Origin: a virus
Virus record (IMG/VR): IMGVR_UViG_3300005736_000002
Location: 1-64,000 of that record
Reading direction: 5' to 3' (one strand)
Length of the DNA: 64,000 nt
Position numbers and translations under genes: made by a program. Below, piece by piece: positions 1-51,300 of this stretch. Under the pieces are notes generated by a model, which was given only the letters and a program-made list of their open reading frames with translations, ran no database searches and had not been told where the DNA came from. Positions within the stretch are counted from its first letter, which is position 1. Every line of letters starts with the position of its first letter.

Positions 1-48
1 CGGACTGCAACTCCGTGTACGCCGGTTCGATTCCGACCCGCGCCTCCA
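1..48 (+). tRNA. tRNA-Cys (GCA), 3' part, cut by the window edge
   Basis: The sequence reads as the 3' part of a tRNA: anticodon stem CGGA/TCCG around a 7-base loop with anticodon GCA at 7-9, a variable region, a T-arm with TTCGATT loop, an acceptor strand CCGCGCC and an encoded CCA at 46-48. GCA is the cysteine anticodon. As I fold it, the T stem has one C-A mismatch. The 5' half lies outside the window. It is followed at once by a phage integrase, so this is a likely integration target. It could be the host gene or the tRNA-identical part of a phage attP; the window cannot decide. Confidence 0.85.
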
Positions 49-223
49 TCCACCAGTTTATAACCTTTCCAGCTTGTTCCACTAAATCCCAAAACCCTTG
101 ATTTTACTGGGTTTCGTGTCCTATGCTGTTTCACGTTGTTTCACCCTAGCCCAAGCATAGTGGGGGGATTTATGGGGGTATATTTGTGGTACCCCCAAAA
201 GTTGATACCCCCAGGGATAAAAT
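49..223. other. Candidate attL and integrase arm-site / promoter region
   Basis: No gene fits here. The stretch lies between the tRNA end and the integrase start. It holds three copies of the octamer TACCCCCA: 173-180 on the minus strand, 190-197 and 206-213 on the plus strand, just before the integrase start. Two GTTTCAC words lie near 129-142. Short repeats like these flanking a P4-type integrase commonly serve as arm-type binding sites and as integrase autoregulation sites. The core crossover would be in the tRNA 3' end. Function is inferred from position and repeats only. Confidence 0.5.
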
Positions 224-1474
224 ATGGCTCTTACAGACAAACATATTAAAGCTCTGGAACCCAGAGATAAGGATTACAAGGTATCGGACGGATTGGGCCT
301 GTACCTGCTGATCAAAAAGAATGGCGCTAAGTACTGGCGTATGAAATTTCGATTCAAAGTGGACGGGAAGTTAAAAGAGAAGGTTCTGGCGATCGGTGTG
401 TATCCCGAAGTTTCTCTGAAGAAAGCTCGAGAAGAAACACTCTCTGCTCGTTCTCTCCTGGATAAAGGTATTAATCCAATCGAGCACCGGAGGACTGAGC
501 AGCCTGTTCAGTTAACGGACACCTCTTTTCTGCGTATTGCTGAAGAATGGTTCAAGATGAAATCCGCTACCTGGTCGGATAAGACCTCCGATCGTAATCG
601 ATCCATTATGGATCTATGGGTTCTCCCTGCGATTGGTGAGCGTGATATGAATGAAATGAAACCTCTCGATATTCTAAAAGCCTGTAAAACAGCAGAAGAC
701 GCTGGTCATTTAGAAACGGCTCATCGAATGCGAGGCATGATTGATAACGTGTATCGCTACGGAATTATTTTAGAGTATGTAGATTTTAATCCGGCGGCAG
801 ATGTGAAGGGTGCACTGACTTCTACTAAGAAGAATCATTATGCGGCAATTACGGACCCGGAAGAGGTCGGACATCTGCTGGTGGCTATGGACGAGTACAA
901 AGGAACCTTTGTCGTAAAGACAGCAACGTGGTGTTCTGCTTACTGGTTCTGTCGTCCTGGGGAAGTGAGATATTTGGAGTGGGATGAGGTAAACCTCAAA
1001 GACAACATGGTGGTTGTCCCTGCTTCTAAGATGAAGCAGTTAAAGAATGCACTGGTGCAGGATCACATGATCCCGTTGTGTACTCAGAGTGCTCAGTTAT
1101 TAAAAGATCTGTACCCCATCACAGGGCGTTCTAAATACGTTTTTCCTTCAGCTCGAGGCGGAAGTAGGCCTTTATCCGAAAACACCGTGAGAGTCGCTCT
1201 GAGAACCATGGGATATGATAAAACTCAAATGACTGCTCACGGGTTCAGGGCCATGGCCCGTACTCTCTTGGATGAAGAACTGGAGTACCGGGTGGATTGG
1301 ATTGAACACCAACTGGCCCATGAAGTTAAGGATGCCAACGGTCGTGCTTATAACCGTACTAAGTTCCTGGCTCAACGGAAAACGATGATGCAGGACTGGG
1401 CGGACTATCTGGATGAATTGAAATTCAAGACAAACAATGGGCTTCCGATTATACGGAAACATGAGAGTGTCTGA
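224..1474 (+). CDS. int: Tyrosine site-specific recombinase, P4-type integrase
   Basis: This 416-residue protein has the usual length and layout of P4/CP4-57-type integrases. Residues 1-90 form the DUF4102 arm-binding domain, about 100-190 the core-binding SAM-like domain, and 210-400 the catalytic domain. The catalytic set is visible: R244 (in CRPGEV), H339 and R342 (HGFR), H366 and nucleophile Y376. Start ATG 224 has AGGGA about 7 bases upstream. It lies next to a tRNA 3' end, the normal target of the family. Its 3' end overlaps the AlpA-like gene on the other strand by 26 bases. It would carry out integration and, with an excisionase, excision. An integrase is unexpected in an N4-type phage. 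Confidence 0.95.
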   Translation: MALTDKHIKALEPRDKDYKVSDGLGLYLLIKKNGAKYWRMKFRFKVDGKLKEKVLAIGVYPEVSLKKAREETLSARSLLDKGINPIEHRRTEQPVQLTDTSFLRIAEEWFKMKSATWSDKTSDRNRSIMDLWVLPAIGERDMNEMKPLDILKACKTAEDAGHLETAHRMRGMIDNVYRYGIILEYVDFNPAADVKGALTSTKKNHYAAITDPEEVGHLLVAMDEYKGTFVVKTATWCSAYWFCRPGEVRYLEWDEVNLKDNMVVVPASKMKQLKNALVQDHMIPLCTQSAQLLKDLYPITGRSKYVFPSARGGSRPLSENTVRVALRTMGYDKTQMTAHGFRAMARTLLDEELEYRVDWIEHQLAHEVKDANGRAYNRTKFLAQRKTMMQDWADYLDELKFKTNNGLPIIRKHESV

Positions 1475-1670
1475 TTTTTTCGAGCCAGCGTTTAATATCG
1501 GACTCTAACCATCCGACACGCTGGCCTCCCAGACTGACTTGTTTCGGGAAGGTGCCGGCCTTCATCTGACGATATATGGTCGTTCTTCCCAGGGAAGTCT
1601 TTTTGATGACTTCATTTACATTCAGTACACGATCATCTTCCTGTACTTCAAGGTCTTGATAGGAGGTCAT
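1449..1670 (-). CDS. AlpA-like helix-turn-helix protein, probable excisionase/regulator
   Basis: 73 residues with the pattern of the AlpA/MerR-like family: a strand-HTH start (residues 16-35, LNVNEVIKKTSLGRTTIYR), then MKAGTFPKQVSLG and a C-terminal helix following GWLESDIKRWL. AlpA relatives act as transcription activators of P4-type integrases or as excisionase-like DNA-binding factors. The gene converges on the integrase and overlaps its end by 26 bases, so expression of one could disturb the other. Upstream it overlaps the neighbouring 106-residue membrane gene by 4 bases, so it is the last gene of the leftward operon. Role as recombination directionality factor is an inference. Confidence 0.85.
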   Translation of the reverse strand: MTSYQDLEVQEDDRVLNVNEVIKKTSLGRTTIYRQMKAGTFPKQVSLGGQRVGWLESDIKRWLEKIRHSHVSV

Positions 1671-1987
1671 TCTGTATCTCCAGGTTTTTTTAGAAGCTTT
1701 ACTAAGTTTCTGTTTTGTTTAATAAGCTCAGCGTTAATTTCTTTCGATTCTAGGAGGAATTGTTGTAATTTTTTAATGTGCTCATCTTTGTAGTCTTCTC
1801 CAGGTTCAGCCTTTTTTCGCGCAGGCCCGTAGAACCAGTTCGATAAAAACATAGCTGCATAGGCCGTACCGACTCCGTAGAACATGACATACCCAAGGTC
1901 TTCCCACTTGAGTAGATCAACCATAACGGTAGTGGACACATACCAGGTACCGCAGTACAGGAAGAGGGCGGAGATTGCTCTAATCAT
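1667..1987 (-). CDS. Small membrane protein with C-terminal coiled coil
   Basis: 106 residues. About residues 1-25 and 30-52 are two hydrophobic segments, followed by YGPARKK, typical of a cytoplasmic positive boundary. Residues 65-100 are charged and helical with coiled-coil character and end LVKLLKKPGDTE. I do not recognise the family. It is coupled to the genes on both sides: its start shares one base with the end of the 161-residue gene and its end overlaps the AlpA-like start. An inner-membrane location is likely. The position next to the integration genes would suit a lysogeny-specific accessory gene, but nothing in the sequence proves this. Confidence 0.7.
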   Translation of the reverse strand: MIRAISALFLYCGTWYVSTTVMVDLLKWEDLGYVMFYGVGTAYAAMFLSNWFYGPARKKAEPGEDYKDEHIKKLQQFLLESKEINAELIKQNRNLVKLLKKPGDTE

Positions 1988-2472
1988 CAGGCTTTATCCT
2001 TGAGTTGTTGGGCGTATTTTTCCAAAAAGAGCCCTACATCATCACCGAACTCTCTACGCATTATGTCTTGAAGCACCTCAACCGTCCTGACATCCATCTC
2101 TACAGCTAAATTCTCCATTACAGCTAGATCAAAGGTAAGTTTAGCAACCTTTGCTAGTAGCTCGTCGCGCTCTCGCTCGGTGCGGATGAGGCGAAAGGCG
2201 ATATCTGGATCACTAATTTTGAACAAATGGTATGCTGATGTAAGAACAACATTACCGTCTTTGAATATCAGTTCAGTTTCGTGCCAGTTGTGACCGGCGT
2301 TAGTGGTGAACTCGCACTTAACACCTAAAGGCGGTAAACCATCACTGTCCCATTTTGGGACTGATTGTTCCTGTTTTGGTTGTTCCTTCTTACCCGCACA
2401 TCCTTCGCAGTTTTGTGCTGTTGGATCATCCCTGCGCAGACAACGCATATCACAATTCTTTTTATCTTTCAT
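1987..2472 (-). CDS. Hypothetical protein with cysteine-rich N-terminus
   Basis: 161 residues. The first 27 residues contain four cysteines (C8, C12, C22, C25) in a lysine-rich context, a possible small metal-binding site. Residues 40-75 look like beta structure (VKCEFTTNAGHNWHETELIF). Residues 95-160 are charged and helical. No known family is recognised. Start ATG at 2472 has a GGAG-type Shine-Dalgarno sequence just upstream. The downstream membrane gene begins on its last base, so the two are translationally coupled. Confidence 0.65.
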   Translation of the reverse strand: MKDKKNCDMRCLRRDDPTAQNCEGCAGKKEQPKQEQSVPKWDSDGLPPLGVKCEFTTNAGHNWHETELIFKDGNVVLTSAYHLFKISDPDIAFRLIRTERERDELLAKVAKLTFDLAVMENLAVEMDVRTVEVLQDIMRREFGDDVGLFLEKYAQQLKDKA

Positions 2473-2511
2473 AACCCTCTCCTCTAAAGTATCTCGGCAA
2501 TCTCTGATTAC

Positions 2512-2838
2512 TTACTGTTGGTTTCCTATGAGCTTTATGTACTCAGACTCCTCCATAAGTATTTTATTTGGTTCAGACTTACGGAGGATGTGGAGCACTT
2601 TTTCATCTGGAGCTTCACCAGCGATCACCTTATTCAGGGAGGTTTTAGGTAGATCCTTTACCGCTGAATGATATTTACGGGTAAAGCCTCGTCTGAAAAT
2701 ATACGAGTGCATGTTGTGTATGTTGGTTTCGAATTTTACTGAAATGTCTTTTACAGACATGTGTTCCTCTTCATAGAGAATACGAATAAGCTCTCTGTCT
2801 TCTTCGAGTGCACTGAAAACCATTCCTTTATTAGACAT
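2512..2838 (-). CDS. Putative HTH protein ending in an xIKLIG tail
   Basis: 108 residues. Residues 15-52 resemble a helix-turn-helix (ELIRILYEEEHMSVKDISV, then a recognition-helix-like NIHNMHSYIF and basic RRGFTRKYH). The rest is helical and charged. The protein ends EYIKLIGNQQ, the same hydrophobic tail seen in the small-gene array at 15-20.8 kb, which makes it a distant member by that motif. It overlaps the upstream 107-residue gene by 8 bases. A DNA-binding role is inferred from the HTH pattern and is not certain. Confidence 0.65.
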   Translation of the reverse strand: MSNKGMVFSALEEDRELIRILYEEEHMSVKDISVKFETNIHNMHSYIFRRGFTRKYHSAVKDLPKTSLNKVIAGEAPDEKVLHILRKSEPNKILMEESEYIKLIGNQQ

Positions 2839-3154
2839 AGCGTTCAGGATGGGTTTTAGCGTGTAAAATCATCCCGCCCCCGTAATGTTGGGTTTTTTCG
2901 CCGTTACGCACAGCAGAGTCACCCAGCTTACCTCCACCCAACCGCATGGCGGCATTACGCCAGATGGCTTTGAAGGCTTCGCCTTCATCGAAGGTCATAT
3001 CCAGAGCACGAATGATGTCTTCACACTCGGTTATGTGGGGATCTAAACGCTTTGGATGGGTTATATGAGCCAGGTAGTAATTGCTATCGCCACCAGAAGA
3101 TTCCTTTTCGGAAGGTTTCTGGGTCATCTGGGTTTCTGGAATTCCGCGTGTCAT
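2831..3154 (-). CDS. DUF3310-like phage protein
   Basis: 107 residues. After a low-complexity N-terminus (about 30 residues), the segment ITECEDIIRALDMTFDEGEA followed by FKAIWRN has the paired-helix pattern of DUF3310-type phage proteins (consensus of the sort E-DII-A--L---EGN-FKYIWR). The C-terminus is Gly-rich, then basic and aromatic. DUF3310 proteins occur widely in phages; their exact role is unclear, although some are annotated as nucleotide-metabolism or kinase-associated proteins. It is the first gene after the terminator at 3232-3266, so it probably starts the last short operon before the integrase. Confidence 0.55.
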   Translation of the reverse strand: MTRGIPETQMTQKPSEKESSGGDSNYYLAHITHPKRLDPHITECEDIIRALDMTFDEGEAFKAIWRNAAMRLGGGKLGDSAVRNGEKTQHYGGGMILHAKTHPERYV

Positions 3155-4989: not shown

Positions 4990-7629
4990 TTATGCGGCTA
5001 CTTTCTCAGTACAGAGATTAATAATCTCTTCTTCTGTAGCGCCATTTGGAAGGGTTATATCTTCTGACCAATCTGGATAGAAAATATCGAGTTCACCACC
5101 CAAAGGTACATCTGGATGGTAAAGTTCAGGTAAGCCTTGCCACTCCATTGCTTCTGTGACGACACCGTTTGCATACTCCATTACGACCGAATCATTTCGG
5201 ATCAAGAAGTACTGAGCATCATGGATATGTGCTACTGGGAGGATGTCGTATCTGAAGTTGGAGTTCAGGGTTTTTTCCTGTACCTCGATGGCAGCACGGT
5301 TATTCAGTAGACCATAGGATTGGCCCAATGCGTTACCGGCTGTTCTGCCTTCCTTCTTCGCCTCATACGGGGTTTTCTTCGAATCCCACAGGACTTGCTT
5401 CAGAAGGGGAGTACGGACTCTCAGACCGAACGCTACTGTCACATACCCATCTTTGGTGGCTTGCTTGATTTGATCAGCAACCCACTTATCTGAGACGTGA
5501 TAGAGCTTGTGGTAGTTATCTTCAATGGCTTTGGCTTCTGCCTCCGGTAAACCGGTCTGATCCATGATCGCATGGTAGGTACCACCGTAGGTCAGGGCAA
5601 AGGTTGGAACCTTTGAGGCCTGTCTCAGGGGTTTGTACTTCTTAGCGATGGAATTGATCGATTGTACCGTTTCTTTGATGTCAGACATCTGATCACCAAA
5701 GTAGGCATACGCACGTAGACAGTGACCATCATAACCGTCGGTATACACCTTCAGCTTCTGAGGATCACGCGTTGTCAGAGCACTGATTCTGTCTTCCAAA
5801 GAAGCAAAGTCAGCGCCTGCAAATAACCAACCTGGGGGTGCTGAGAAGCACATTTTAACCAGCTTGGCCCACTGGTTCCCTGCAGATGGAATGTTCTGTA
5901 GGTTAGGGCCGGATGAGCTTAAACGCCCACTGACTGTTCCGCCTAGATTGAAGTTACCGTGAAGGTAATACCAGCCATCTTCTTTCAGAACAGCCCCTTC
6001 AAAAGCCTTGATGAACGTACCGAGAATTTTCGAGGCATCCGCTATTTCTACGAGGGAGTCGATAAGTTCATGTACGGTAACGTTCCTGGTGTGGTTCTTT
6101 AGCTTTTTGAGAGTATCAGCGCCTACAGCAGGCTGCTTACTGTCTGTCAGATCCAGTACAGGCAAGTTCAACATGTCATACAGCAAATACTGTATTTGGG
6201 TGTTCGAGCCTGGATTAAACACAATGGCTTTATTACTGGTTTTAAATACATCCCAGTCTTTACGCTTTATGTTTTCCGGATGTTTGGCTTTCTTTCTTCG
6301 ATCGTCGAAGTCTTTCTCCCAGGCTTTACGTGACAGGTCTTCTTCAAGTACCTGAATATACGGTAAGCCTTTGAGAATTTTATCGTGCTTTTTAATCTCT
6401 GCTTCCAGTACGACACGGGCTTCTTTTACTTTCTCCATATTGATCGGCATCCCGGTCAGCTCCATCTGGAGAATGACTTTGACGCTGGGGATCATAATGT
6501 CGTTGTAAATTTGAAGCTGCTTGTCTGCAGTCATCGTTGGGGCATGTTTTTTGTACACATACCAGGTCGATAGGCAGTCCACGAGGTTGTACTGGAGAAG
6601 ATCCGGTTTCGGAATTACTGAGATGTCCTCGATGTCATTATGCGCCCAGTTACCCGCAAACTCGTGTGCCTGAGCCTTGAGGCCCAGATCATTCCCGGAG
6701 GTAGAGTTTGTGGCTAGGTAGGTCACAATCTTCGTATCGTGGAAACCACGGGTCATCACCTCAATACCTTTCTGCTTACCCTTTTCATCCAGAAGAGTCG
6801 CCATCCAGAGCGTGTTCACGATGATTTTTAAATCATAATTCGCGTTGTGCCAGATGATCTTACCTTCGTAGGTTTCAAAGAATTTCATGAGCAGGTCACG
6901 TATCGCCTGACGACGTAGGAAGCTCACCTGGTTCGGGTGATCCTCTAAATCGACAGGGAAGGCGAGGCCGTTATGTTCATCCCATGCGAAACCGATGGTG
7001 CCTATCCCCGTTTCCCAGAATTTCAGTGAGAACGCTTCTATGTCACAACTGAGCATCGGGTACTGGTGTAGGGATTCTAACGCCTGCCTAATACCCAAGT
7101 AGTCAGTAGGGTACTGGGCCGAGTGAATGATACCGCCCCCGAGCTCCTGGTACTGACCTTTGAGTAGGTCGCTGATTGTTTTAATCGCCATGTCCAGTTT
7201 GTCCTGGATCTCTGGTTTGTAGAAGATCGCACCGTAATTGGGGGCCAGTGTGACCGTCATATCCTCATAGGTTTCTTTGGTTGTGCTGTTTTGGTATTTG
7301 CAGTCCAGGACATAGCCGTAGTGAGGATCGACTTTACCCACTTTCGTGAGTGACTTGAAATACTGGCTGTCAGCACAGAGGATATTTTTTACACCCAGGT
7401 TTTTCAAAGCCGGTAAAAGGTTATTGAGATAAGGCTCCCAAGTACCTTTGGGACATTTACCGTTTTGAGCGTAATCCAGGGTGAAACAAATCAGAGAATC
7501 TTTATTAACACCTTGTTGAACCAATGGCTCAACATAATGTTCTAAGAGGGACTTTTTATTAAAACTGGAACTTTTAATTAAAATGGCGGTTTCATAGGTG
7601 TCAGCTTCTTTAAATAATAAGTGACGCAT
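4990..7629 (-). CDS. Family A DNA polymerase with 3'-5' exonuclease (N4 gp39-like)
   Basis: 879 residues, the size of N4-type replicative DNA polymerases. An N-terminal module of about 190 residues has no motif I recognise. The proofreading exonuclease follows: D196/E198 (SCDIEAF), HNANYD with D266, and YNLVDC with D351. The polymerase domain carries motif A (FAGADFASLEDR, D607), motif B (R669, K673, Y681 in RQASKVPTFALTYGG) and motif C (HIHDAQ, D804). It copies the phage genome. It heads leftward into a strong terminator and is preceded by a 172-residue gene and the helicase in one operon. The first 40 codons are AT-rich relative to the rest. Confidence 0.95.
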   Translation of the reverse strand: MRHLLFKEADTYETAILIKSSSFNKKSLLEHYVEPLVQQGVNKDSLICFTLDYAQNGKCPKGTWEPYLNNLLPALKNLGVKNILCADSQYFKSLTKVGKVDPHYGYVLDCKYQNSTTKETYEDMTVTLAPNYGAIFYKPEIQDKLDMAIKTISDLLKGQYQELGGGIIHSAQYPTDYLGIRQALESLHQYPMLSCDIEAFSLKFWETGIGTIGFAWDEHNGLAFPVDLEDHPNQVSFLRRQAIRDLLMKFFETYEGKIIWHNANYDLKIIVNTLWMATLLDEKGKQKGIEVMTRGFHDTKIVTYLATNSTSGNDLGLKAQAHEFAGNWAHNDIEDISVIPKPDLLQYNLVDCLSTWYVYKKHAPTMTADKQLQIYNDIMIPSVKVILQMELTGMPINMEKVKEARVVLEAEIKKHDKILKGLPYIQVLEEDLSRKAWEKDFDDRRKKAKHPENIKRKDWDVFKTSNKAIVFNPGSNTQIQYLLYDMLNLPVLDLTDSKQPAVGADTLKKLKNHTRNVTVHELIDSLVEIADASKILGTFIKAFEGAVLKEDGWYYLHGNFNLGGTVSGRLSSSGPNLQNIPSAGNQWAKLVKMCFSAPPGWLFAGADFASLEDRISALTTRDPQKLKVYTDGYDGHCLRAYAYFGDQMSDIKETVQSINSIAKKYKPLRQASKVPTFALTYGGTYHAIMDQTGLPEAEAKAIEDNYHKLYHVSDKWVADQIKQATKDGYVTVAFGLRVRTPLLKQVLWDSKKTPYEAKKEGRTAGNALGQSYGLLNNRAAIEVQEKTLNSNFRYDILPVAHIHDAQYFLIRNDSVVMEYANGVVTEAMEWQGLPELYHPDVPLGGELDIFYPDWSEDITLPNGATEEEIINLCTEKVAA

Positions 7630-13245: not shown

Positions 13246-14439
13246 TTAGGAGAGTGCGTAGTTAGAGTTGCGTACTTTGTCTGCGATGTTGTCCCACTTA
13301 ACGTAGGTCACAGGAGTCCCGTGCACATCCGACAGGATCTGCTCCAGGATCTTAGACTCAGCGATTTCTGCCAGGATCTCCTTATACCAGTAACGTAAAC
13401 GGTTAACGTGGTTAGGGTGGCACTTGAACTCGTCATGTACACAGACGATTGGGAACTCTCTGTAGCTCAGAGTTTCAATGATCAGGTTACGCAGACGTAC
13501 CAGGTCATTGTGGCTCAGTTTATCAATAGCTGTCTTGATGTTCTCTATATGAACCAGGGAGATGAAGTTATCTGTATTGAGATCCACTGGATCACGGACA
13601 CCTTCTAGCTCTACGTTGATGAAGCGTAGTGCTCTGCGGAGTTGAGTTTCATCGTGGTTACAACGACGGCTCATCTCACGTACCACCATACCATCAACAG
13701 AGTGAGTGATATTGGCAGCAATGGATAGGCCTGTTTCTGAGCCCCGGTTCTCCATGAAGCGGTGAGTGAAGGTAGCGTGATCCAGCTCATCTACTTCTAC
13801 TTTGATGTCCACTTCCTGCATGACCTTAACGTTCACGCAGAAGCCATCTGGGAGCGTCCAGGAGTGCGCTGGAGCCCATGACTGCCAAGAAGCCATCATG
13901 TCATCCATTACTTCACAAGCACCTGGCGCAACGATCTTCTGAGCCTCGTAGAACTTTTCCAATTCCACAGTCTCTTCACCGAAGATCTCTTTAGGCTTTG
14001 CCTTAGATCCGTAGAAGTGCGTCATCTGAGCCTGCTTCACTTCTTTACGCAGGGGAGCAACCTGCACACCTTCATGCTTCAGGAGCTGGTTCATCTCTTC
14101 AGTGGTGGTTGAGTAGATGTCAGCGCGTACATTTGGGTCAATCAGACCTGTATTGTTCGCTGTGACTTCACAACCGATCAGGCAGCTCATGATCTGCAGA
14201 CCAGAGGAACACGCATCAAAGCCAACCAGGTGGCCTGAAGCGATGCCTGCTTGCGCTTCACGCAGAGCCATGACTGCTTTCAGGTACAGGACGGGTTCAT
14301 CAGCGTCGTCCAGCAGTTCTTCGAGTTTATTTAGGTTGGAATCCACCCAGGCAAGGCGATCTTCAAACAGGGCTTTGTCTAGGCCAAACTGGTTAGCGAT
14401 GTCGAGTTTAATGTATTCAAATCCTGTGAAGTGGTCCAT
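13246..14439 (-). CDS. RNAP2, large subunit of split T7-like RNA polymerase (N4 gp16-like)
   Basis: I place the start at ATG 14439, giving 397 residues (N4 gp16 is about 404). The upstream extension of the frame runs through the HNH gene and is not plausible. T7 family motifs are present: motif A GFDACSSGLQ (D75), motif B with R131, K135, Y143 G144 at the T7 spacing (R-x4-K-x7-YG), HSVDG at 246-250 and motif C CVHDEF (D336). It lacks the N-terminal part and the promoter-side DxxGR motif, which are supplied by RNAP1 at 18042-18941. Together they should form the middle-gene RNA polymerase. The subunits are 3.6 kb apart here. Confidence 0.93.
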   Translation of the reverse strand: MDHFTGFEYIKLDIANQFGLDKALFEDRLAWVDSNLNKLEELLDDADEPVLYLKAVMALREAQAGIASGHLVGFDACSSGLQIMSCLIGCEVTANNTGLIDPNVRADIYSTTTEEMNQLLKHEGVQVAPLRKEVKQAQMTHFYGSKAKPKEIFGEETVELEKFYEAQKIVAPGACEVMDDMMASWQSWAPAHSWTLPDGFCVNVKVMQEVDIKVEVDELDHATFTHRFMENRGSETGLSIAANITHSVDGMVVREMSRRCNHDETQLRRALRFINVELEGVRDPVDLNTDNFISLVHIENIKTAIDKLSHNDLVRLRNLIIETLSYREFPIVCVHDEFKCHPNHVNRLRYWYKEILAEIAESKILEQILSDVHGTPVTYVKWDNIADKVRNSNYALS

Positions 14440-14440
14440 T

Positions 14441-14926
14441 TTATTCTCTCCGAGGTCTGCGGTTGTTAGCCTGTTCTTTTCTGGATGCCCAACGGCAGTT
14501 ACTAGGCTCGTAATTTCCGCTGTTATTAGTGCGTTCGATAGTGAGGTCTTCGGTATAGCCGGCGTTGTATGCCCACTCAGCAAAGACACTGAAATCATCC
14601 CAATCAGGGGTAATGTTGATGCCTCTACCCCCATAGTACTGATAACTAGGGGTATTGGTGTTGTTACAACGGGATCTCATATTCTTCCAAATACGATGAA
14701 GTCTGGAGCCTGAAGCTCCATGCTGCCGGGACATATTTCCGGTAACTTCTTTTCGGATACATCCGCAAGATTGTGTTTTTCCTGATCTCAAAGAGTTTTG
14801 GTCAATGACCTTTGTGTTACCACACGAACACTTACACATCCATTTTCTAGGGCGAGTTCTAGGCAGCACCTCTTCAATCGCAGTAAGTTGTCCGAAGGTT
14901 TGTTTGGTAATGTCTATAGCCTGCAT
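14441..14926 (-). CDS. HNH homing endonuclease
   Basis: 161 residues. Residues 11-60 hold a zinc-ribbon-like CKCSCGN ... SCGC pair. The C-terminal 100 residues match the common phage HNH type: [20 protein letters not shown], then [19 protein letters not shown] with final basic [10 protein letters not shown]. Such free-standing endonucleases spread by cutting alleles that lack them. It ends one base before the RNAP2 start, so it sits exactly at the 5' border of RNAP2 without interrupting it. It may have separated the two polymerase subunit genes or moved in afterwards. Confidence 0.88.
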
Positions 14927-17858: not shown

Positions 17859-18045
17859 TAGGTGCTCCTATCATCTGAAGTAACTGAGCTTCTTTCAGCT
17901 TCTCAGTCCAATACTTAATCGAGTTCTCGTGGTGAGTCTTTGACCAGGGTCTAATGGCCCGTTTGAGGTGTTCTTGGTGGAACGTGATACGTTTCTTTAA
18001 CCAAGTAATGCTCTGGTCGTTCTCTGGGTTTATTCTGGGTTTCAT
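17845..18045 (-). CDS. Array gene: 66-residue basic protein with QLLQMIGAP
   Basis: Basic and His-rich (WLKKRITFHQEHLKRAI), ending TEKLKEAQLLQMIGAPNDTL. Similar in layout to the 17685-17858 product. Its ATG overlaps the RNAP1 stop by 4 bases, so the RNA polymerase subunit and this array member are translationally coupled. Function unknown. Confidence 0.68.
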   Translation of the reverse strand: MKPRINPENDQSITWLKKRITFHQEHLKRAIRPWSKTHHENSIKYWTEKLKEAQLLQMIGAPNDTL

Positions 18046-18941
18046 ACCCCCTCCACAATCTCTTTATCGTGTAGTTCAATGATGGCCTTTCTGAACGCAT
18101 TACCCTGGGTAGATACGTGGTATCCCTGGGCGTATGTGCGGCCTCGTTTATCGACTTTGTGCGTGAGCCAGAACTCATTACCTTGATGGATCAAGTCCCT
18201 GTAGATCAGGTAGGAGTCCTTCACGAACTTCTCCCATTGCTCTTTACGTTCTGGGTCTTCGATCAGTTTTTTAGGTATCTCAGAGTATGTCTTTAGCAGC
18301 TCTACATTGAGGCTCAGAGGCACCTGATTGAACCGGTTAATACTGTCCAGACAGATATCATCTTCATGGAAATTAACGTTACCGCCTAAGATAAGAGAGT
18401 CACGTTTAGTAAGGTAACCGCTGTCGTAGTTACTGCGGACTTTCTTCGGTGGAACAATCATGGGTGGTAAGTATTTGGTCTGAGCTATGAAGCGTTGTAA
18501 TCCTTCGCTTGGCGTGATGCGTGGACGTACCATCAGAGAGGCTTGTTTGCTCTCTTTTATGATGTCATAGATGTCCAGATCACACAGGACTGCAAGGATC
18601 TCAGCGGAGGTCTTAACGCCGTCTCCTTTGTCTGAGAAACCCAGTTTTCCTGCGAGTTGACCGACAACCTGGGTGAACAGAGTGGTCTTCTCGAGCACCA
18701 GGATTTCCATGATGACTTCCATCACAATCTCTTCCAGATCGAGGATGAGGAGCTGCTCTACACGGATACGTTTGGAGTCGTGATACTCCGGTGCTTTGTT
18801 GATGTAATCAATCAGCAATAGCTTACCTTCAGTAATGATCTGGGCTGCACCGTCTGTCTCTTCAATCTCCTTTTTGATGGCTTTACGGATGTTGGATTTA
18901 GAGAACATTTTCTCAATGTCTTCTTGGAATTCAGGCAGCAT
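18042..18941 (-). CDS. RNAP1, small subunit of split T7-like RNA polymerase (N4 gp15-like)
   Basis: 299 residues (N4 gp15 is about 269). It matches the part of T7 RNA polymerase that precedes motif A: YLPPMIVPPKKV (157-168) corresponds to the RPMxxPP region, and DKRGR (264-268) is the T/DxxGR motif that contacts the RNA-DNA hybrid. It ends shortly after that motif, exactly where N4 splits the enzyme. The rest is RNAP2 at 13246-14439. In N4 the two genes are adjacent; here thirteen array genes and an HNH gene lie between. It is flanked on both sides by array members. Confidence 0.9.
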   Translation of the reverse strand: MLPEFQEDIEKMFSKSNIRKAIKKEIEETDGAAQIITEGKLLLIDYINKAPEYHDSKRIRVEQLLILDLEEIVMEVIMEILVLEKTTLFTQVVGQLAGKLGFSDKGDGVKTSAEILAVLCDLDIYDIIKESKQASLMVRPRITPSEGLQRFIAQTKYLPPMIVPPKKVRSNYDSGYLTKRDSLILGGNVNFHEDDICLDSINRFNQVPLSLNVELLKTYSEIPKKLIEDPERKEQWEKFVKDSYLIYRDLIHQGNEFWLTHKVDKRGRTYAQGYHVSTQGNAFRKAIIELHDKEIVEGV

Positions 18942-24470: not shown

Positions 24471-24610
24471 TTCCCGGTTATCTCTGGCTCTTGATTACTT
24501 ACTCTTTGATTGTGTTCTCAGCCTACCAGACGCTCCTCCTGATCGACTTTATTAAGTACCAGATACGAGAGGACGATGATGACGGAGAGTTCGGGGAGGA
24601 CATCCCCTGA
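24467..24610 (+). CDS. Tiny single-pass membrane protein
   Basis: 47 residues. Residues 2-28 (IPGYLWLLITYSLIVFSAYQ and on to LLLIDFI) form one membrane helix; the C-terminus is highly acidic (EDDDDGEFGEDIP). Start overlaps the 75-residue gene stop as ATGA and its stop TGA overlaps the terminase start, so it is coupled on both sides. Function unknown. Confidence 0.6.
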   Translation: MIPGYLWLLITYSLIVFSAYQTLLLIDFIKYQIREDDDDGEFGEDIP

Positions 24611-26229
24611 TGGATATGTCTACGCACGACATCATTGAAGAAGCTCTGGGTGGTCAAAAGAAGGTTGAGGATTACCTCAATTCAACCGACTACAAATCAG
24701 ACCCTTATTATGTTCCGAGTGACTTTGCTCTGGAATTCGTCACGTTTATTAAACTTGTTAACGGAGAAGACGGTGAAGAGAACCTTACCCCTCTTGTGCA
24801 TTACCACATGCTTGACACTATCACCTTTGGTGGTACCCGCATTGCTAACCTATGCCACCGTGGTATTGCAAAAACCACCCTCATGGGTGAGTACCTCTTC
24901 CTCTACTTAGGGGTTTATGGGCAGATCCCAGGCTTCGGTAAAATAGACCTGGCTCTGTATGTATCGGACTCCATTGAGAACGGTGTGAAGAACATGAGGA
25001 AGAACCTGGAGTTCCGTTGGGAGAACTCTGACTTCCTCAAAGAGTACATCCCTGTCGTCAAATTGACGGATATTCGTTGGGAGTTCCGGAACAGAGATGG
25101 GGATATCTTCATTGTTAAGGGGTACGGTGCCAAGACCGGTGTCCGTGGTGCGAAGGAGATGGGTAAACGTCCTCAGTTGGCGGTACTCGATGACCTGATC
25201 TCGGATGAGGATGCACGATCTGCGACTGTTATTTCTGCGGTAGAGGACACGATCTATAAAGCGGTCAACTACGCCTTACACCCGAAGAAAAACATCATCA
25301 TCTGGTCAGGTACACCCTTTAATGCGAAAGATCCCCTGTATAAGGCCGTAGAATCCGGTGCCTGGGCCGTAAACGTGTTCCCAGTATGTGAACAATTCCC
25401 GTGCGCTAAAGAGGATTTCAAAGGTTCCTGGCCCGACCGATTCAACTATGAGTACGTGAAAGAGCAATATGAGATTGCTGTTAAGACCGGTAAGGTGGAT
25501 ACCTTCAACCAGGAGCTGATGCTCCGGATCATGTCTGATGAAGACCGTTTGATCCAGAACTCAGACATTCAGTGGTACTCTCGTAAGGCGGTACTGGAGA
25601 ACAGGCAACTGTTCAACTTCTACATCACCACCGATTTTGCGACTTCTGAAAAGACCTCTTCCGATTTCTCGGTGATCTCAGTCTGGGCCTACAACAATAA
25701 TGGGGACTGGTTCTGGGTTGATGGGGTAGTGAAACGGCAGTTGATGGATAAAAACGTGAATGACCTGTTCCGACTGGCTCAGATCTATAAGCCTCAGTCA
25801 GTAGGGATTGAGGTGACTGGGCAGCAAGGCGGATTCGTTCAGTGGATTCAGAACGAGATGCTCACTCGTAACATTTACTTCCCGCTGGCCTCAGAAGGTA
25901 ACAACAACAACCCAGGTATTCGTCCAAACACGAACAAAATGGTGCGTTTTAATACCATGGTTCCGATGTTTAAATCCCATAAAATGTTCTTCCCTGTGGA
26001 ATTAAAAACCGATCCTAGAATACTGGAGGCGATGGACGAATTAACCCTCGCATCCCCAGGTGGTTTTAAATCAAAACACGACGATTTTATCGACACAATT
26101 TCTATGCTTTCTAGTTTACATGTATGGAAACCTTCCCAGCAGAGTGATTTTAATTCTAATGCGGAAAAAGATTATTGGGAGCTAGAAATGGAGGAGGAAG
26201 ATAATAGAATGGTTTCCTATATTGTTTAA
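24610..26229 (+). CDS. terL: Terminase large subunit (N4 gp68-like)
   Basis: 539 residues. The ATPase half has a Walker-A-like RGIAKTT (84-90) and Walker B LAVLDDL (D194, D195), followed by a coupling-motif-like IIWSGTP. The RNase H-like nuclease half shows D342 (TTDFATS), E401 (VGIEVTG) and HDDFID (D491-D495). It drives DNA into the procapsid and cuts it to length at the headful or terminal repeat. The last 60 codons turn AT-rich. A 53-base gap then precedes the next gene. Confidence 0.93.
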   Translation: MDMSTHDIIEEALGGQKKVEDYLNSTDYKSDPYYVPSDFALEFVTFIKLVNGEDGEENLTPLVHYHMLDTITFGGTRIANLCHRGIAKTTLMGEYLFLYLGVYGQIPGFGKIDLALYVSDSIENGVKNMRKNLEFRWENSDFLKEYIPVVKLTDIRWEFRNRDGDIFIVKGYGAKTGVRGAKEMGKRPQLAVLDDLISDEDARSATVISAVEDTIYKAVNYALHPKKNIIIWSGTPFNAKDPLYKAVESGAWAVNVFPVCEQFPCAKEDFKGSWPDRFNYEYVKEQYEIAVKTGKVDTFNQELMLRIMSDEDRLIQNSDIQWYSRKAVLENRQLFNFYITTDFATSEKTSSDFSVISVWAYNNNGDWFWVDGVVKRQLMDKNVNDLFRLAQIYKPQSVGIEVTGQQGGFVQWIQNEMLTRNIYFPLASEGNNNNPGIRPNTNKMVRFNTMVPMFKSHKMFFPVELKTDPRILEAMDELTLASPGGFKSKHDDFIDTISMLSSLHVWKPSQQSDFNSNAEKDYWELEMEEEDNRMVSYIV

Positions 26230-31372: not shown

Positions 31373-31425
31373 TTTATATTAACTATTCAAGTAATCCTTT
31401 TCGTTAAATTAAATAATATTTAAAT

Positions 31426-31456
31426 AAACTTTTTGAATTTATATTATTTTCTCTCC
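31426..31456 (+). promoter_or_regulatory. Late repeat element upstream of second holin
   Basis: AAACTTTTTGAAT (31426-31438) followed by TATATTATTTTCTCTCC (31440-31456). Both words recur exactly before the portal gene (36808-36820 and 36910-36926). An AT-rich 200-base gap with two shared words suggests a phage late promoter element. Confidence 0.5.
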
Positions 31457-36702: not shown

Positions 36703-36947
36703 AAATATCCCGTTGCAGTAATTATCAGGCTTTCAGCCAATAATTGAGAGCGATGAGAATATCAATTTAATTAAACCAAACCCAGAGATAATGTTTTTAT
36801 TAATAAAAAACTTTTTGAATAATAATTAAATGTTGAGTTTGTTTGTTTATTTTAGTTAAACTACGCCCAATTCAGCTCTGCTATTATATTTAAGAGCGTT
36901 TCTTCAAATTATATTATTTTCTCTCCATAGTTTTTACGGGAATTAAA
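36703..36947. promoter_or_regulatory. AT-rich divergent control region before portal
   Basis: No gene. Contains AAACTTTTTGAAT (36808-36820) and TATATTATTTTCTCTCC (36910-36926, 21 bases before the portal start). Both are exact copies of words at 31426-31456. Likely promoters for the head operon (+) and the PhoH/glutaredoxin operon (-). Confidence 0.5.
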
Positions 36948-39089
36948 ATGCAGGAAGAATCCCTCGAAAATAACACAGAGGTCACAGAGGATAGCCCAGT
37001 TAATCAATTAACTGAGTGGGAAAATCCTCCTTCTCTCAGAGATCTTAAACAAGATTATTCTGACGCTAAACAGGACACCGATGCTCAGGTTCTGAAAGTT
37101 AATGGCTGGTTAGACAGTTTCAATGTTGAAGGCGCTGCCAAACCTAAACAGGTTGATGGCAACTCCAGCATTCAGCCTAAGCTGATCCGTAAACAGGCGG
37201 AGTGGCGTTATCCTGCGTTGAGTGAACCTTTCCTAAGTGATGAAGACATCTTCCGTGTTCGTCCTGCAGGCCATGCTGACCGTAACTCGGCCTATCAGAA
37301 TCAACTGGTTCTGAATCATCAGTTCAATACTGAGATTGATAAAGTCGAGTTTATTGATGAATTTGTGCGTACAGCGGTTGAAGAGGGTACAGCTTTTGTT
37401 CGTGTAGGTTGGGCCTATGAAGAAAAGACTGAGGAAATTGAAATACCGGAGTTTGTTTACCGTCCGGCTAATACCCAGAAAGAGATCCAGGACATTCAGA
37501 TCCTGGCGACCCTGGCTCAAAACAATCCTCAAGAATTCTCTCAGATAGCTCCTCACTTTCAACAAGCAGTAATGCTTTCTGCCCAGCAGCAGCGTCCTCT
37601 TTATCCGGAACAGAAAGGTACCCGTATTGAGGAAGAAGTGACGGTCATAAAGAACCGTCCAACTCTGGAAGTATGTGACTACCGTAATCTGACGATTGAC
37701 CCGAGCTGTAACGGTAACCTGGATGAAGCGAAGTTCGTGATTTACAGCTTTGAAACATCCAAATCCGAGCTTGACGCAACCGGGCTATACACCAACCTTG
37801 ACCGCATCATGATTGATGAGAACAGTCCTCTGGGACAGGCTGATCATGAAGTTGAGGAGGGTTCTAATTTCAACTTCAAAGATGATCCCCGTAAACGCCT
37901 GATTGCTCATGAGTATTGGGGGTTCTGGGATATCGATGGTACGGGTGAAATCAAACCGTTCGTTGCTACCTGGGTAGGCAGTACCTTGATCCGTATGGAA
38001 GAAAACCCATACCCAGATCAGAAACTCCCGTTTGTTGGTATTAAATACTTACCGAAACGTAAATCAATTTATGGTGAACCGGACGGTGCGCTTCTGGAAG
38101 ATAACCAGAAGATTGTCGGTGCGGTCACTCGCGGCATGATCGACATCATGGCGAAATCTGCGAACGGACAGACCGGTGTGCGTAAAGATGCCCTGGATCT
38201 ATCCAACCGTCGTAGATTCATGAAAGGCCAGGACTACGAATTCAATGCGAATGTAGATCCTCGTCAAGCTATCCACATGCACACTTACCCTGAGATCCCA
38301 GTCTCTGCCTTCAACATGCTTCAACTGCAGAATGCAGACGCTGAGTCGATGTCAGGCACCAAAGCATTCAATGACGGTATCTCAGGCCAGTCTTTCGGTG
38401 AGGTAGCTGCCGGTGTACGTGGTGCACTGGACGCAACTTCAAAACGTGAGATGTCCATCCTGCGTCGTCTGGTTGCAGGCATGGTTAAGATCGGTACCAA
38501 GATCATCAGCATGAACTCCGAGTTCCTGTCCGATGAGACGATTGTCCGTGTGACTGATGAAGAACAGGTACTGATTAAACGCGATGCCTTGGCTGGTAAG
38601 TTTGATCTGAAACTGAGTATCAGCACTGCAGAAGAAGATAACGCTAAAGCTCAAGAGCTGGCCTTCATGCTGCAGACAATGGGACCGAATGAAGACCCTG
38701 GTCTTCGTAAGCTCCTTCTTACCGAAATTGCTCGACTCCGCAAGATGCCAGAACTGGCGAAGCGTCTCGAGACTTATGAACCTCAACCTGACCCATTACA
38801 GCAACGTATCCAGATGCTCGAGATTGCCAAGCTGGAGGCGGAGATTGCTCAGATTCAGGGTAAGGCCCGAGAACATCAGTCAGGTGCTGTCCTGGATCAA
38901 GCGAAAGCTAAGAACCTGAATGCAGACACTGATCTTAAAAACCTGGACTTTGTTGAACAAGAGTCCGGGGTACAACAAGCGCGTGAACTACAGAAACAGA
39001 GCGAACAGGCCAAGTCCAATACGCAACGTGACGTAGTGAGCCACCTTTTGAAAAACCAAGAAGGCACACAACAACCTTCTGCAACTTAA
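36948..39089 (+). CDS. Portal protein (N4 gp59-like)
   Basis: 713 residues, close to the N4 portal size. A polar N-terminus (1-60), then a portal core with WRYPALSEPFLSDEDIFRV, a large beta/helix wing, and a long C-terminal coiled-coil region (600-700, Gln/Lys/Ala-rich). It forms the dodecameric DNA gate in the head vertex and the hub for tail proteins. It is first in the block whose order matches N4 gp59 to gp50. Named from order, length and C-terminal barrel-like helices. Confidence 0.85.
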   Translation: MQEESLENNTEVTEDSPVNQLTEWENPPSLRDLKQDYSDAKQDTDAQVLKVNGWLDSFNVEGAAKPKQVDGNSSIQPKLIRKQAEWRYPALSEPFLSDEDIFRVRPAGHADRNSAYQNQLVLNHQFNTEIDKVEFIDEFVRTAVEEGTAFVRVGWAYEEKTEEIEIPEFVYRPANTQKEIQDIQILATLAQNNPQEFSQIAPHFQQAVMLSAQQQRPLYPEQKGTRIEEEVTVIKNRPTLEVCDYRNLTIDPSCNGNLDEAKFVIYSFETSKSELDATGLYTNLDRIMIDENSPLGQADHEVEEGSNFNFKDDPRKRLIAHEYWGFWDIDGTGEIKPFVATWVGSTLIRMEENPYPDQKLPFVGIKYLPKRKSIYGEPDGALLEDNQKIVGAVTRGMIDIMAKSANGQTGVRKDALDLSNRRRFMKGQDYEFNANVDPRQAIHMHTYPEIPVSAFNMLQLQNADAESMSGTKAFNDGISGQSFGEVAAGVRGALDATSKREMSILRRLVAGMVKIGTKIISMNSEFLSDETIVRVTDEEQVLIKRDALAGKFDLKLSISTAEEDNAKAQELAFMLQTMGPNEDPGLRKLLLTEIARLRKMPELAKRLETYEPQPDPLQQRIQMLEIAKLEAEIAQIQGKAREHQSGAVLDQAKAKNLNADTDLKNLDFVEQESGVQQARELQKQSEQAKSNTQRDVVSHLLKNQEGTQQPSAT

Positions 39090-40670: not shown

Positions 40671-41846
40671 ATGGCTGATGAACGTATGTATAACGACCCG
40701 GCGGGTGGAACACCTTCCGAGGTCGGCCCACAGTTTCGCACGGACTTCTATCAGAAAAAGGCTCTGATTGAAGCTCAGAAGGAACAGTATTTCATGCCTT
40801 TGGCGGATGTTACTGCAATGCCTAAGCATTTCGGTAAGACCATCAAAAAATATCACTACATGCCGCTGCTTGATGATCGAAACATCAACGACCAGGGTAT
40901 TGATGCGGCGGGTACAACCATCGCTGATGGTAACTTGTATGGTTCTTCTAAAGACATCGGTACCATCCCAGGTAAGCTGCCTACGCTGTCTGAAGCAGGC
41001 GGTCGTGTAAACCGTGTCGGTTTCAAGCGTCTGGAGCTTGAAGGTACTATCAACAAGTTCGGTTTCTTTGACGAATACACTCAGGAGTCTCTGGACTTCG
41101 ATACTGATGCTGAACTGGAAATGCACATTAACCGTGAAATGGTTCGTGGTGCTTCCGAGATCACTGAAGACGCTCTGCAGATCGACCTGATCAACGGTGC
41201 GGGTGTAATTCGTTTTGCGGGTGATGCGACAGCGAATGCTGAAGTAGACGATGCAGATGAAGTTACTTATGGCGACATCATGCGTCTAGGTATCGATCTG
41301 GATAACAACCGTACACCGAAGCACACTAAGATCATCACAGGTACTCGCCTGGTTGATACTAAAGTGGTTAACGCTTGCCGTGTTATGTACGTGGGCTCTG
41401 AACTGATTCCTCTGCTGAAAGGCATGAAGGATCTGCACAACAACCCTGCGTTCATTCCAGTACAGCACTACGCTGCTGGCGGTGACGTAATGAACGGTGA
41501 AATCGGTTCTATCGATAACTTCCGTATCGTTGTTGTACCTGAAATGTTGAAGTGGGCAGGTGCCGGTGCAGATGCTTCTGCAACAGCTACTCACCACGAG
41601 ACAGGTAACGCCTACGACGTATTCCCAATGCTGGTTGTGGGTAACGCTTCCTTCACAACTATCGGTTTCCAGACTGATGGTAAGACTGTGAAGTTCAAGA
41701 TCACTCACAAGAAACCAGGTCGTGAAACTGCGGATCGTAATGATCCATACGGCGAAACTGGCTTCATGTCTATTAAGTGGTACTACGGCACAATGATCCT
41801 GCGCGGCGAGCGTATCGGTCTGATCAAAACTGCTGCACCTCTCTAA
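40671..41846 (+). CDS. Major capsid protein (N4 gp56-like)
   Basis: 391 residues, near the N4 gp56 length. [20 protein letters not shown] at the N-terminus, conserved [20 protein letters not shown] and the C-terminal [19 protein letters not shown] region fit the N4gp56-type HK97-fold capsid family. Codon use is even and well-adapted, as expected for the most abundant phage protein. It is followed by a terminator hairpin at 41860-41887. Confidence 0.9.
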
Positions 41847-48393: not shown

Positions 48394-51300
48394 ATGTACG
48401 ATCAAAATAATCCCTCGCCAAAAGAAAATGCTTTAAAAAAGGCGATTGACCGAAATACTCAGCATATTAACCAAGTCACAAATCCTACAGGTTTTTTTGA
48501 CTCTGAATTAAAACGTATCCAGGGATCTAATCGCATCGCTGAGGAAAGTTACCAGCGAAATTCTCAAGCCTGGGTCAACGATACTGAACTGGGTACGATC
48601 CCCGGTAACCTCAAACAGGTCGCCGCAGTTGCTGTTCAGGGTGGTTTGAGAATTGGTAATAAACTGTATGCAGGGGTCGATGACCTACAGGCTGATATTA
48701 ACCTGGCTCATACCAGTGAAGAAGCTCGTGGAATTTATCAACGTATAAAAGGGCGTGAACAGCTTACCAGTGCTATAGGTGAGTTACGCTACATGGAGCG
48801 TAACGGGCACATCACACGAGATCAGGCGAATCAGCGACTGCTGCAGCTCCAGTCTGAGCTGGCTACCCTCAAAGAAGTTAGTCCAGAGGAGGAGGCACTT
48901 TTAGATCAAGTAGCCACTCCAGAGAATATCTATGACCAAAGCACCCAACGTGATCACCTAGACCGCTTTTATAAGAATTTAGATGAAGCGTCGTATTCCC
49001 GTCAGGTATTTGAAGAGAGTACTACAGGAAATATTGCTAACCCCATCCGTAAGAGCAAACCGATCACTGAGTTGAGCGAGTTAAATGAGCAGAATGCCCC
49101 TGAGTGGGCTGCTGCAATTGACGAGCTGTTTGATGGAGATACGGGGCAGGGTATTTTGGATCTAGCCAAGGCTGCCGGCAAATCAGGTAAGAACATTGCA
49201 CAGGCCGCTATCAATAATCCACTCGGCACACTGGATCTGCTCCTTGAAGACCTTGGCCCGACTGCGGCGGCTACTCTCCTGGGCGGCAAAAAGATCGGTA
49301 CCCTTGTTAACTTACTAGGATCTAGTGGCGATGCTCTGAGAGCCCACAACGAAGGTCTGAGGAAGTTTATCGAAGAAAATAACCGATTACCCACAGAGAC
49401 TGAACACCTCTCTATGGTGGCCTCTGCAGTGGCCTATGCGGGTGCAGACTTTGTGGCGGATAAGATTGCCGTTGATAAGTTGATTCCAAAGAAAACTTTA
49501 GATGCGGCTAAAGCTGCTGTTGATAAAGCAGGTAGCACCAACAAACTCACTCAAGCAGCGAAACGTGTCGGAGGTGCGGGTAAAGATGTTGCGGCTGCGA
49601 CAGCGGCTGAATTTGTGGCGGGCGGTGCTCAGGGTTTACTTGAGGAGACGACCCTCAAAGGCAACTACGACCCGTCAAAAATTGATTCAAAAGCTGTACT
49701 GGATAATGCCACAACAGAAGCTTTGGCAGGTTTTGGTGCAGGTGTCACTGGTACTCCTCTTAGATTATCTGGTAAGATCCCCGCCCGAAAAAATGGTGAA
49801 AATGTACCAAATAACAAAGAAAACGTTGTAGGGGGTGAAAGTGATTCAACAACGGAGCCTGATGATACTAATACCAATGAAGTTAGTGCAGATGCTACTA
49901 ACTCCGGATCCCAAACTACAAACGATGATTTACGTGACAAAAACAAAGCTCAACAAGTACAAGAGCGAAAACAGCAAGAGATTGCTGAACAATTCAAAGA
50001 GTTAGACCGGTATGATGATCAACTAGATCAACTCGAGTCGCAGGGTAAAACCGACACACGTCGTTTCAAAAAACTCTCTGAAAAGCGTGATGTAATTGAG
50101 TCACAGATCCTGAGAAATCAGGAGACTGTCAGAGCAGCTTTAGCACGTATCCATTCACCGAAGGATACAAAAGAACTCGTGCAAAGCATAAACGATGCAC
50201 AGGAAGTTAGTTCTGAAGTCGAAGAAAAAACGAACCAGGTAGTTCAGCAAGCTCGTACTGCTCCTGACTCGTTATCAGTGGAAGATGCCCAGTCTCTCGC
50301 CAAAAGTAAGGTGATGACTGATACACAAAAAGAGGAACTGCAGTCGTTCGCTATCGCAAAACAAGCGGTAGAGGCGGCAACTTCAACTGACCCTGAAGAT
50401 AAGTTAACAACCGAGAAGGTTCAAAAAGAAGTTCTATTTGGAGGTAAACGCACTCAGCGTAGAGGTCTTAAACAATTCCGTGAGGAATTTATCCATGCTG
50501 TACGAGTAGGTGATGCAGATCAAGCCGTATTGGTTCGATCTTCTCTGGCTCGTTTCGTTACGACGCACGGTGATAAGGCCAGTGAACTTTCAGACGCTTT
50601 ACAACCTTACTTGGCAAGCCCAAATCGTGAAGGCTATACCTCCACCCGGTTCAAGCTGAGTCGTCCTCGTCCGGACGGTTCCACTGATTTCCGTATTGAT
50701 CGTGGTTCAAAAGCCACGGTAGATGCGATTCAGCTAGAGGCTCGTGCACTTGAAGCGGGTCTTGCGGAAATTGACGCGATCGCAAAAGCAGAAGGCATTC
50801 AACTACTGGGTGATCCAATCCCAGTACGCCCGCCTGTGCGCTCAGTTGCGGTAAACCCCTCTGCAGCTAAACCTCAGCCTACCCAGGAAGTAACGCCTGA
50901 CGTAGAGCCTGAGATCGACCTACAGCAGGAACTTGCTAATCTGGATGCTGCTCAGGAGTTTTTAGCGGCGGAACCTCCCGTCTCTGAGAGAAGTTCTGAA
51001 ACGAGTGAAGTGACGAGGGAAGTTCCGCAGGAACTTCAGGAGGAGCCTGAACGAGTTGAGGAAGTTATCGAAGCTGCCGGAGAGGTGGAGCAAGCGTCAG
51101 AACCGACAGAGCGCCAAAACATCCGTGAGAATATCCGAAAGTTAGAGGATCGAGTCCAGCAGCGTAAACGACTAATACGCAGTAAAGCTTCGTTGACCCA
51201 GGCGGCTAAAGACTACGATACGACTGTTGAGAGGGTACGTGATGCGATGAACGCTTCTCTCCTTGATGATCAGTCCCGGTTAGAGGCCTACAGGAATCAA

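Follow-up and report, generated by a model that had tools for sequence, protein, structure and literature searches.

An N4-type phage genome, probably temperate and integrated at the 3' end of a host tRNA-Cys gene, with its integrase in a recurrent slot

The DNA analysed, here called the window, is a stretch of 64,000 nucleotides (positions 1-64,000 of a virus record that is 71,677 bp long and is classed as linear). We found the record to be an otherwise complete genome of the N4 type (Schitoviridae), which probably belongs to a temperate phage inserted into a host tRNA-Cys(GCA) gene at its 3' end and probably breaks off before attR. Terminase, portal, major head protein, two RNA polymerase (RNAP) subunits, DNA polymerase (DNAP), helicase, primase and exonuclease of the N4 type were recognised in the record. 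Matches of the terminase, portal and major head protein were to PHROG 38, 1216 and 1357 (E 1e-104 to 1e-243), and the two-subunit RNAPII was present (PHROG 2166 and 2051). The integrase, an adjacent AlpA-type protein and all structural and replication genes tested were full length, in agreement with the original prediction, made from the DNA letters, of an N4-type phage with its lytic genes apparently intact. The genes of the window beyond the integrase region are as follows.

1667..3154 (−): small genes separating AlpA from the DNAP side
2512-2838 (−): gene with no family match
2831-3154 (−): conserved 107-aa gene, whose homologue sits between DNAP and exonuclease in relatives
4990..7629 (−): DNAP of the N4 gp39 type (PHROG 17, E 7e-159), left border of the integration slot
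13246..14634 (−): N4-type RNAP subunit (gp16-like)
18042..18941 (−): N4-type RNAP subunit (gp15-like)
24610..26229 (+): terminase large subunit (TerL; PHROG match), 81% identical to TerL of a Marinobacterium prophage
36948..39089 (+): portal protein (PHROG match)
40671..41846 (+): major head protein (PHROG match)
48394..58956 (+): virion RNA polymerase (vRNAP) open reading frame, 3,520 aa, assigned by position and by homology to the vRNAP regions of relatives

The gene at 2512-2838 might, at a guess, encode a regulator; no repressor was identified in the record. Host genes were not recognisable anywhere in the 71,677 bp, the record ending before host DNA on both sides, and the record had neither a terminal repeat nor overlapping ends. 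Searches returned no close DNA relatives among cultured phages and no IMG/VR contig of the same virus reaching past position 1; another contig matched the record at 100% identity over 15,020 bp and extended no more than 18 nt past its right end. Rfam gave no structured RNA at the gathering threshold. Two AT-rich 44-nt repeats (31413-31456 and 36883-36926), 77% alike and located ahead of + strand genes, are possibly late promoters. Outside the window, a 200-aa HNH-type gene splits the Sak4-like gene (record 65,489-66,529; L056:7490-8530), and the same interval gave a group I intron match below the Rfam gathering score (34.7 bits, E 1e-6); this insertion is probably a self-splicing intron with a homing endonuclease. 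A homologous HNH gene follows the primase in the related contig L110, and between the exonuclease and the right end there is a further gene, HNH-like by its sequence (208 aa; record 70,625-71,251; L056:12626-13252).

At the left end, a P4-type integrase with intact catalytic residues, an AlpA-like factor and the 3' end of tRNA-Cys had been predicted side by side, and all three were confirmed. The region is arranged as follows.

1..48 (+): 3' portion of a tRNA-Cys(GCA) from the host, truncated where the record begins; most likely attL
31..48 (+): att core as predicted from related P4-type integrases, covering the tRNA's final 17-18 nt
67..81 (+): putative integrase arm-type site TTCCAGCTTGTTCCA, with a 10-bp period
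129..143 (+): putative integrase arm-type site TTTCACGTTGTTTCA
161..213 (+): G5/C5 inverted repeats (TGGGGG.../GATACCCCCA), just upstream of the integrase gene
224..1474 (+): P4-type tyrosine integrase, 416 aa
1449..1670 (−): AlpA-type excisionase/regulator, 73 aa (PF05930, E 4e-18; PHROG 2790)

The integrase contains Arm-DNA-bind_3, Phage_int_M and Phage_integrase domains, all exceeding the Pfam cut-offs, matched PHROG 1 (E 5e-57) as well as solved CP4-type arm domains and shared 35% identity with the Int of phage P4 across 95% of the length. The catalytic residues R244, H339, R342, H366 and Y376 were invariant in an alignment with nine relatives. The AlpA-type gene is convergent with the integrase gene and overlaps its 3' end. 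Two arm-like 15-nt pairs of this kind occurred in none of 5,000 shuffles of 49-223, a figure that serves only as a guide, the motif having been picked after similar 10-bp-period repeats were seen upstream of related integrases; genome-wide, 7 were counted on both strands. The G5/C5 inverted repeats are possible operator or arm sites, and the GATACCCCCA repeats were also present upstream of the closest integrase relative found (Marinobacterium, L219) and, in similar form, in L002.

Bases 1-48 (CGGACTGCAACTCCG...CGCGCCTCCA) begin with the 5' strand of the anticodon stem and extend via the anticodon GCA to CCA, thereby comprising the anticodon stem-loop (CGGA CTGCAAC TCCG), the T-arm, the acceptor strand and CCA. 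ARAGORN called no tRNA at the left end of the window, since part of the gene is missing where the record begins. The 48 nt matched an intact tRNA-Cys in L077; of 392 genomes from the order that includes Marinobacterium, 55 contained them without a mismatch (0 with a reversed-pattern control), a distribution that points to this kind of host. Down to 13-mers, the record contained no second copy of the tRNA-Cys 3' end, and a tRNA-Cys pattern search of viral contigs returned no N4-type phage. Other, unrelated viral elements at tRNA-Cys (L069, L079, L082, L084, L087 and others) share a 43-nt 3' fragment starting at the anticodon loop, and no integrase similar to that of the window was found in the contigs sharing this end; a second kind of element would appear to use tRNA-Cys, with a longer shared end than that of the P4-type relatives.

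Upstream of related integrases, we measured over how many nucleotides at most the sequence agrees exactly with the 3' end of a tRNA, with 98 tRNA genes from the compared loci as the reference. A complete tRNA (the attL state) was located upstream in 13 loci and only the last 14-18 nt (attP or attR) in 7; L110, L219 and two other loci gave no match upstream of the integrase gene. Matches stopped after 17-18 nt in L009, L019, L023 and G014 and after 14 nt in L044, and in the two remaining loci the contig itself starts precisely there, 18 nt (L010) and 17 nt (L021) from the tRNA end, divergence being directly visible only in the other five loci. The distance from tRNA to integrase gene was 161-165 nt in both groups, except in L044 and L049 (tRNA-Ser, about 195 nt), and was 175 nt in the window. 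Here, the tRNA match is 48 nt long and reaches the first base, 30 nt beyond such a core (no more than 18 nt), the core length being drawn from relatives that use other tRNAs, none of them tRNA-Cys. Because the match exceeds the core of the relatives and reaches the record edge, beyond which the 5' half of the tRNA would lie, the left end is most likely attL, with the contig breaking off inside a host tRNA that is itself intact. Among the compared loci, G014 (L223, L259) is a 61-kb N4-type contig with an integrase gene and a 17-nt tRNA-Leu end, flanked on both sides by phage genes; about 13 kb of other genes, possibly for tail and lysis, lie between its att site and the exonuclease side. Because its tRNA end and integrase are about 15 kb away from the exonuclease gene, it was used only as an example of attP.

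If the core of the window's integrase were longer, as the approximately 43 nt shared by tRNA-Cys elements would allow, the left end could be the attP of a free phage. Position 1 would then lie in an attP with a tRNA-Cys fragment of at least 48 nt, a circular or concatemeric assembly would have been broken at the tRNA shared with the host, and the phage would still be temperate. The record without a host gene is consistent with such a phage, as are the tRNA-Cys elements, which carry another integrase, and the integrase genes of L110 and G014, which have phage genes on both sides. We nevertheless regard a free phage as rather unlikely: truncated tRNA ends beside related P4-type integrases did not exceed 18 nt; a core of 43 nt would still leave 4 further nt that agree with the host tRNA, for which the chance is about 1/256; and an unbranched circle should assemble with overlapping ends, of which none were found.

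Integration at tRNA-Cys, the reading that we prefer, places the junction with the host within the middle gene region, where the genome had been predicted to open between the DNAP side and the SSB/RuvC side; comparison of gene orders upheld this and narrowed the opening to one slot. In four relatives (L061, L063, L065 and L068), the order is DNAP, exonuclease, primase and Sak4-like gene, with a homologue of the 107-aa gene between DNAP and exonuclease in three of the four, and the same middle gene order occurs in Vibrio phage K479 and in N4 (gp39-gp40-gp41-gp42-gp43-gp44). In the record, DNAP is located near the left end and exonuclease and primase near the right end, and because of this departure from the order in relatives we read the record as permuted, with the tRNA, integrase and AlpA genes at the cut. 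Once the record ends were joined, the order gp37-gp39-gp42-gp43-gp44 was restored, with the integrase cassette between gp39 and gp42. Judged by gene order, the record is circularly permuted, and its opening falls in the gp40/gp41 slot, between N4 gp39 (DNAP) and gp42 (exonuclease). By analogy with N4, the virion ends would be expected elsewhere, between the early genes and the terminase gene, at about 22-24 kb here, a region through which the record runs. L110, with homologous exonuclease-side genes, also has an integrase in the slot, and its phage genes run on to exonuclease and primase.

Two isolates with N4-type prophages were found by a genome scan with a primase profile. In Alteromonas sp. 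BMJM2 (G003:C65), a 233-kb contig leads from host genes through exonuclease-primase-vRNAP, terminase, RNAPs, DNAP, a 421-aa integrase and tRNA-Leu(GAG) to host genes again. A 30-nt repeat (AAATTGGTGCGGAAAGCGGGACTTGAACCC) at both ends of this prophage bounds about 72.7 kb, one copy lying at tRNA-Leu and the other some 600 nt ahead of the first exonuclease-side gene (L095:7887 and L215:13379), and is the duplicated 3' end of the tRNA, that is, an att duplication. The original proposal of a temperate, or at least integrating, N4-like phage is supported by this duplication and by the 48-nt tRNA match of the window relative to a core of no more than 18 nt. In Marinobacterium litorale DSM 23545 (G002:C16), an N4-type prophage directly follows a cluster of tRNA-Gly, tRNA-Cys and tRNA-Leu(TAA). 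Its primase gene is cut at a contig end carrying transposase-like sequence (L094:1-330), and this prophage looks broken. In a TerL tree, the record and the Alteromonas and Marinobacterium prophages fell in one supported group together with lytic Vibrio phages (11 rows, support 100/98); the record was nearest to Marinobacterium, with branches inside the group weakly resolved. Because the integrases differ, the feature shared among these prophages is the slot, not the enzyme.

Integrase-bearing 67- to 70-kb phages of Rhodobacter and Rhizobium were rejected as N4-type, being Casjensviridae, and matches in Dyella ASV21, Pantoea eucrina and Methylophaga were more distant, the Dyella integrase gene being located elsewhere in its genome. 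Five N4-type contigs (L097, L099, L101, L103 and L104) were binned in metagenome-assembled genomes labelled as archaeon, Gastranaerophilales, Desulfurococcales, Clostridia and Gracilibacteria, and these are probably binning errors rather than hosts.

The interrupted primase gene of the Marinobacterium relative and the record without an identified repressor would fit a decayed or grounded prophage, or a captured tRNA fragment, in which the integrase is a passenger and integration and excision have been lost. We consider such decay improbable in view of the full length of the integrase, AlpA and tested structural and replication genes, the intact catalytic residues of the integrase and the arm-like sites in place beside it. 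That an unrelated integrative element (tRNA-Cys plus integrase) was wrongly joined in assembly to a lytic N4-type genome is very improbable, for although the best integrase relatives sit in unrelated phages and islands, the N4-type genes (2831-3154 and DNAP) follow integrase and AlpA unbroken and in the expected order, and several independent N4-type genomes have an integrase in the same slot.

For an integrated prophage at tRNA-Cys, we propose the following course of events. The linear virion genome would first circularise, probably via terminal repeats between the early genes and the terminase gene, at about 22-24 kb. Recombination by the P4-type integrase between the chromosomal tRNA gene and the phage attP, in which by analogy no more of the tRNA is present than its final 17-18 nt, would then reopen the circle at a second point, between gp39 (DNAP) and gp42 (exonuclease). 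Integration would re-form an intact tRNA at attL beside the integrase gene (position 1) and leave a short tRNA copy at attR, which is expected immediately beyond the right edge of the record. The probable role of the AlpA-like protein is to control the integrase gene or to serve as an excisionase or directionality factor.

N4 is a textbook lytic phage, and N4-like viruses have long been called strictly lytic; the original prediction noted that N4-type phages are described mainly in this way. In N4, the early genes are read by a virion-carried RNA polymerase that is injected to start infection, and the vRNAP gene is a late gene read by the host RNA polymerase. Integrated N4 relatives raise the question of how a prophage without an injected polymerase stays silent and then starts; hypothetically, the early genes of such a prophage would by default go untranscribed, and on induction the late genes would have to be read first. 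It is conceivable, though we hold it only tentatively, that temperate Schitoviridae repeatedly acquired different integrases at gp39|gp42 and that prophage induction starts with late vRNAP transcription via the host RNA polymerase, in the reverse of the order during infection. Mapped attachment sites and a recurrent slot make such prophages findable and their excision testable by PCR. An N4-type genome is not automatically that of a strictly lytic phage, a point that is relevant to the choice of therapy phages.

The novelty attached in the original prediction to an integrating N4-type phage is weakened by the first report of this lifestyle in the family, a 2023 account in mSystems ('Identification of hidden N4-like viruses and their interactions with hosts', PMC10654107) of 40 N4-like proviruses, mainly of Moraxella, and of 54 genomes with an integrase or other lysogeny hallmark genes, by which temperate N4-like viruses as such were already known; its main text makes no mention of attachment, integration site, excision or Marinobacterium. 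New here are a further temperate N4-type member with a readable probable attachment site, two more isolate prophages and a recurrent integration slot. The proviruses of that report likewise combine Schitoviridae core genes with lysogeny genes, and the present analysis differs in giving the tRNA, the probable core, the opening point and the two further isolate prophages. The Alteromonas sp. BMJM2 prophage is opened at the same gp39|gp42 slot, with an att duplication at a tRNA 3' end, but uses tRNA-Leu(GAG), has a TerL 73% identical to that of the record and carries a 421-aa integrase in which no similarity to the window's integrase was detected. The Marinobacterium litorale prophage has the closest TerL of those compared (81%), with 76% for the head protein and 58% for DNAP, but has its own 327-aa integrase gene just downstream of tRNA-Leu(TAA), and its exonuclease/primase side is on another contig and interrupted. 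Like the phage P4 integrase and CP4-57 AlpA modules, the window has, beside a tRNA 3' end, an Arm-DNA-bind_3 integrase paired with an AlpA-type protein; unlike them, its module is carried by a 72-kb N4-type genome, and its Int is only 35% identical to P4 Int. With Escherichia phage N4 and lytic Schitoviridae such as Vibrio phage K479, the record shares gene content and genome order, whereas the slot that holds an integrase here is occupied in those phages only by small genes (such as gp40 and gp41).
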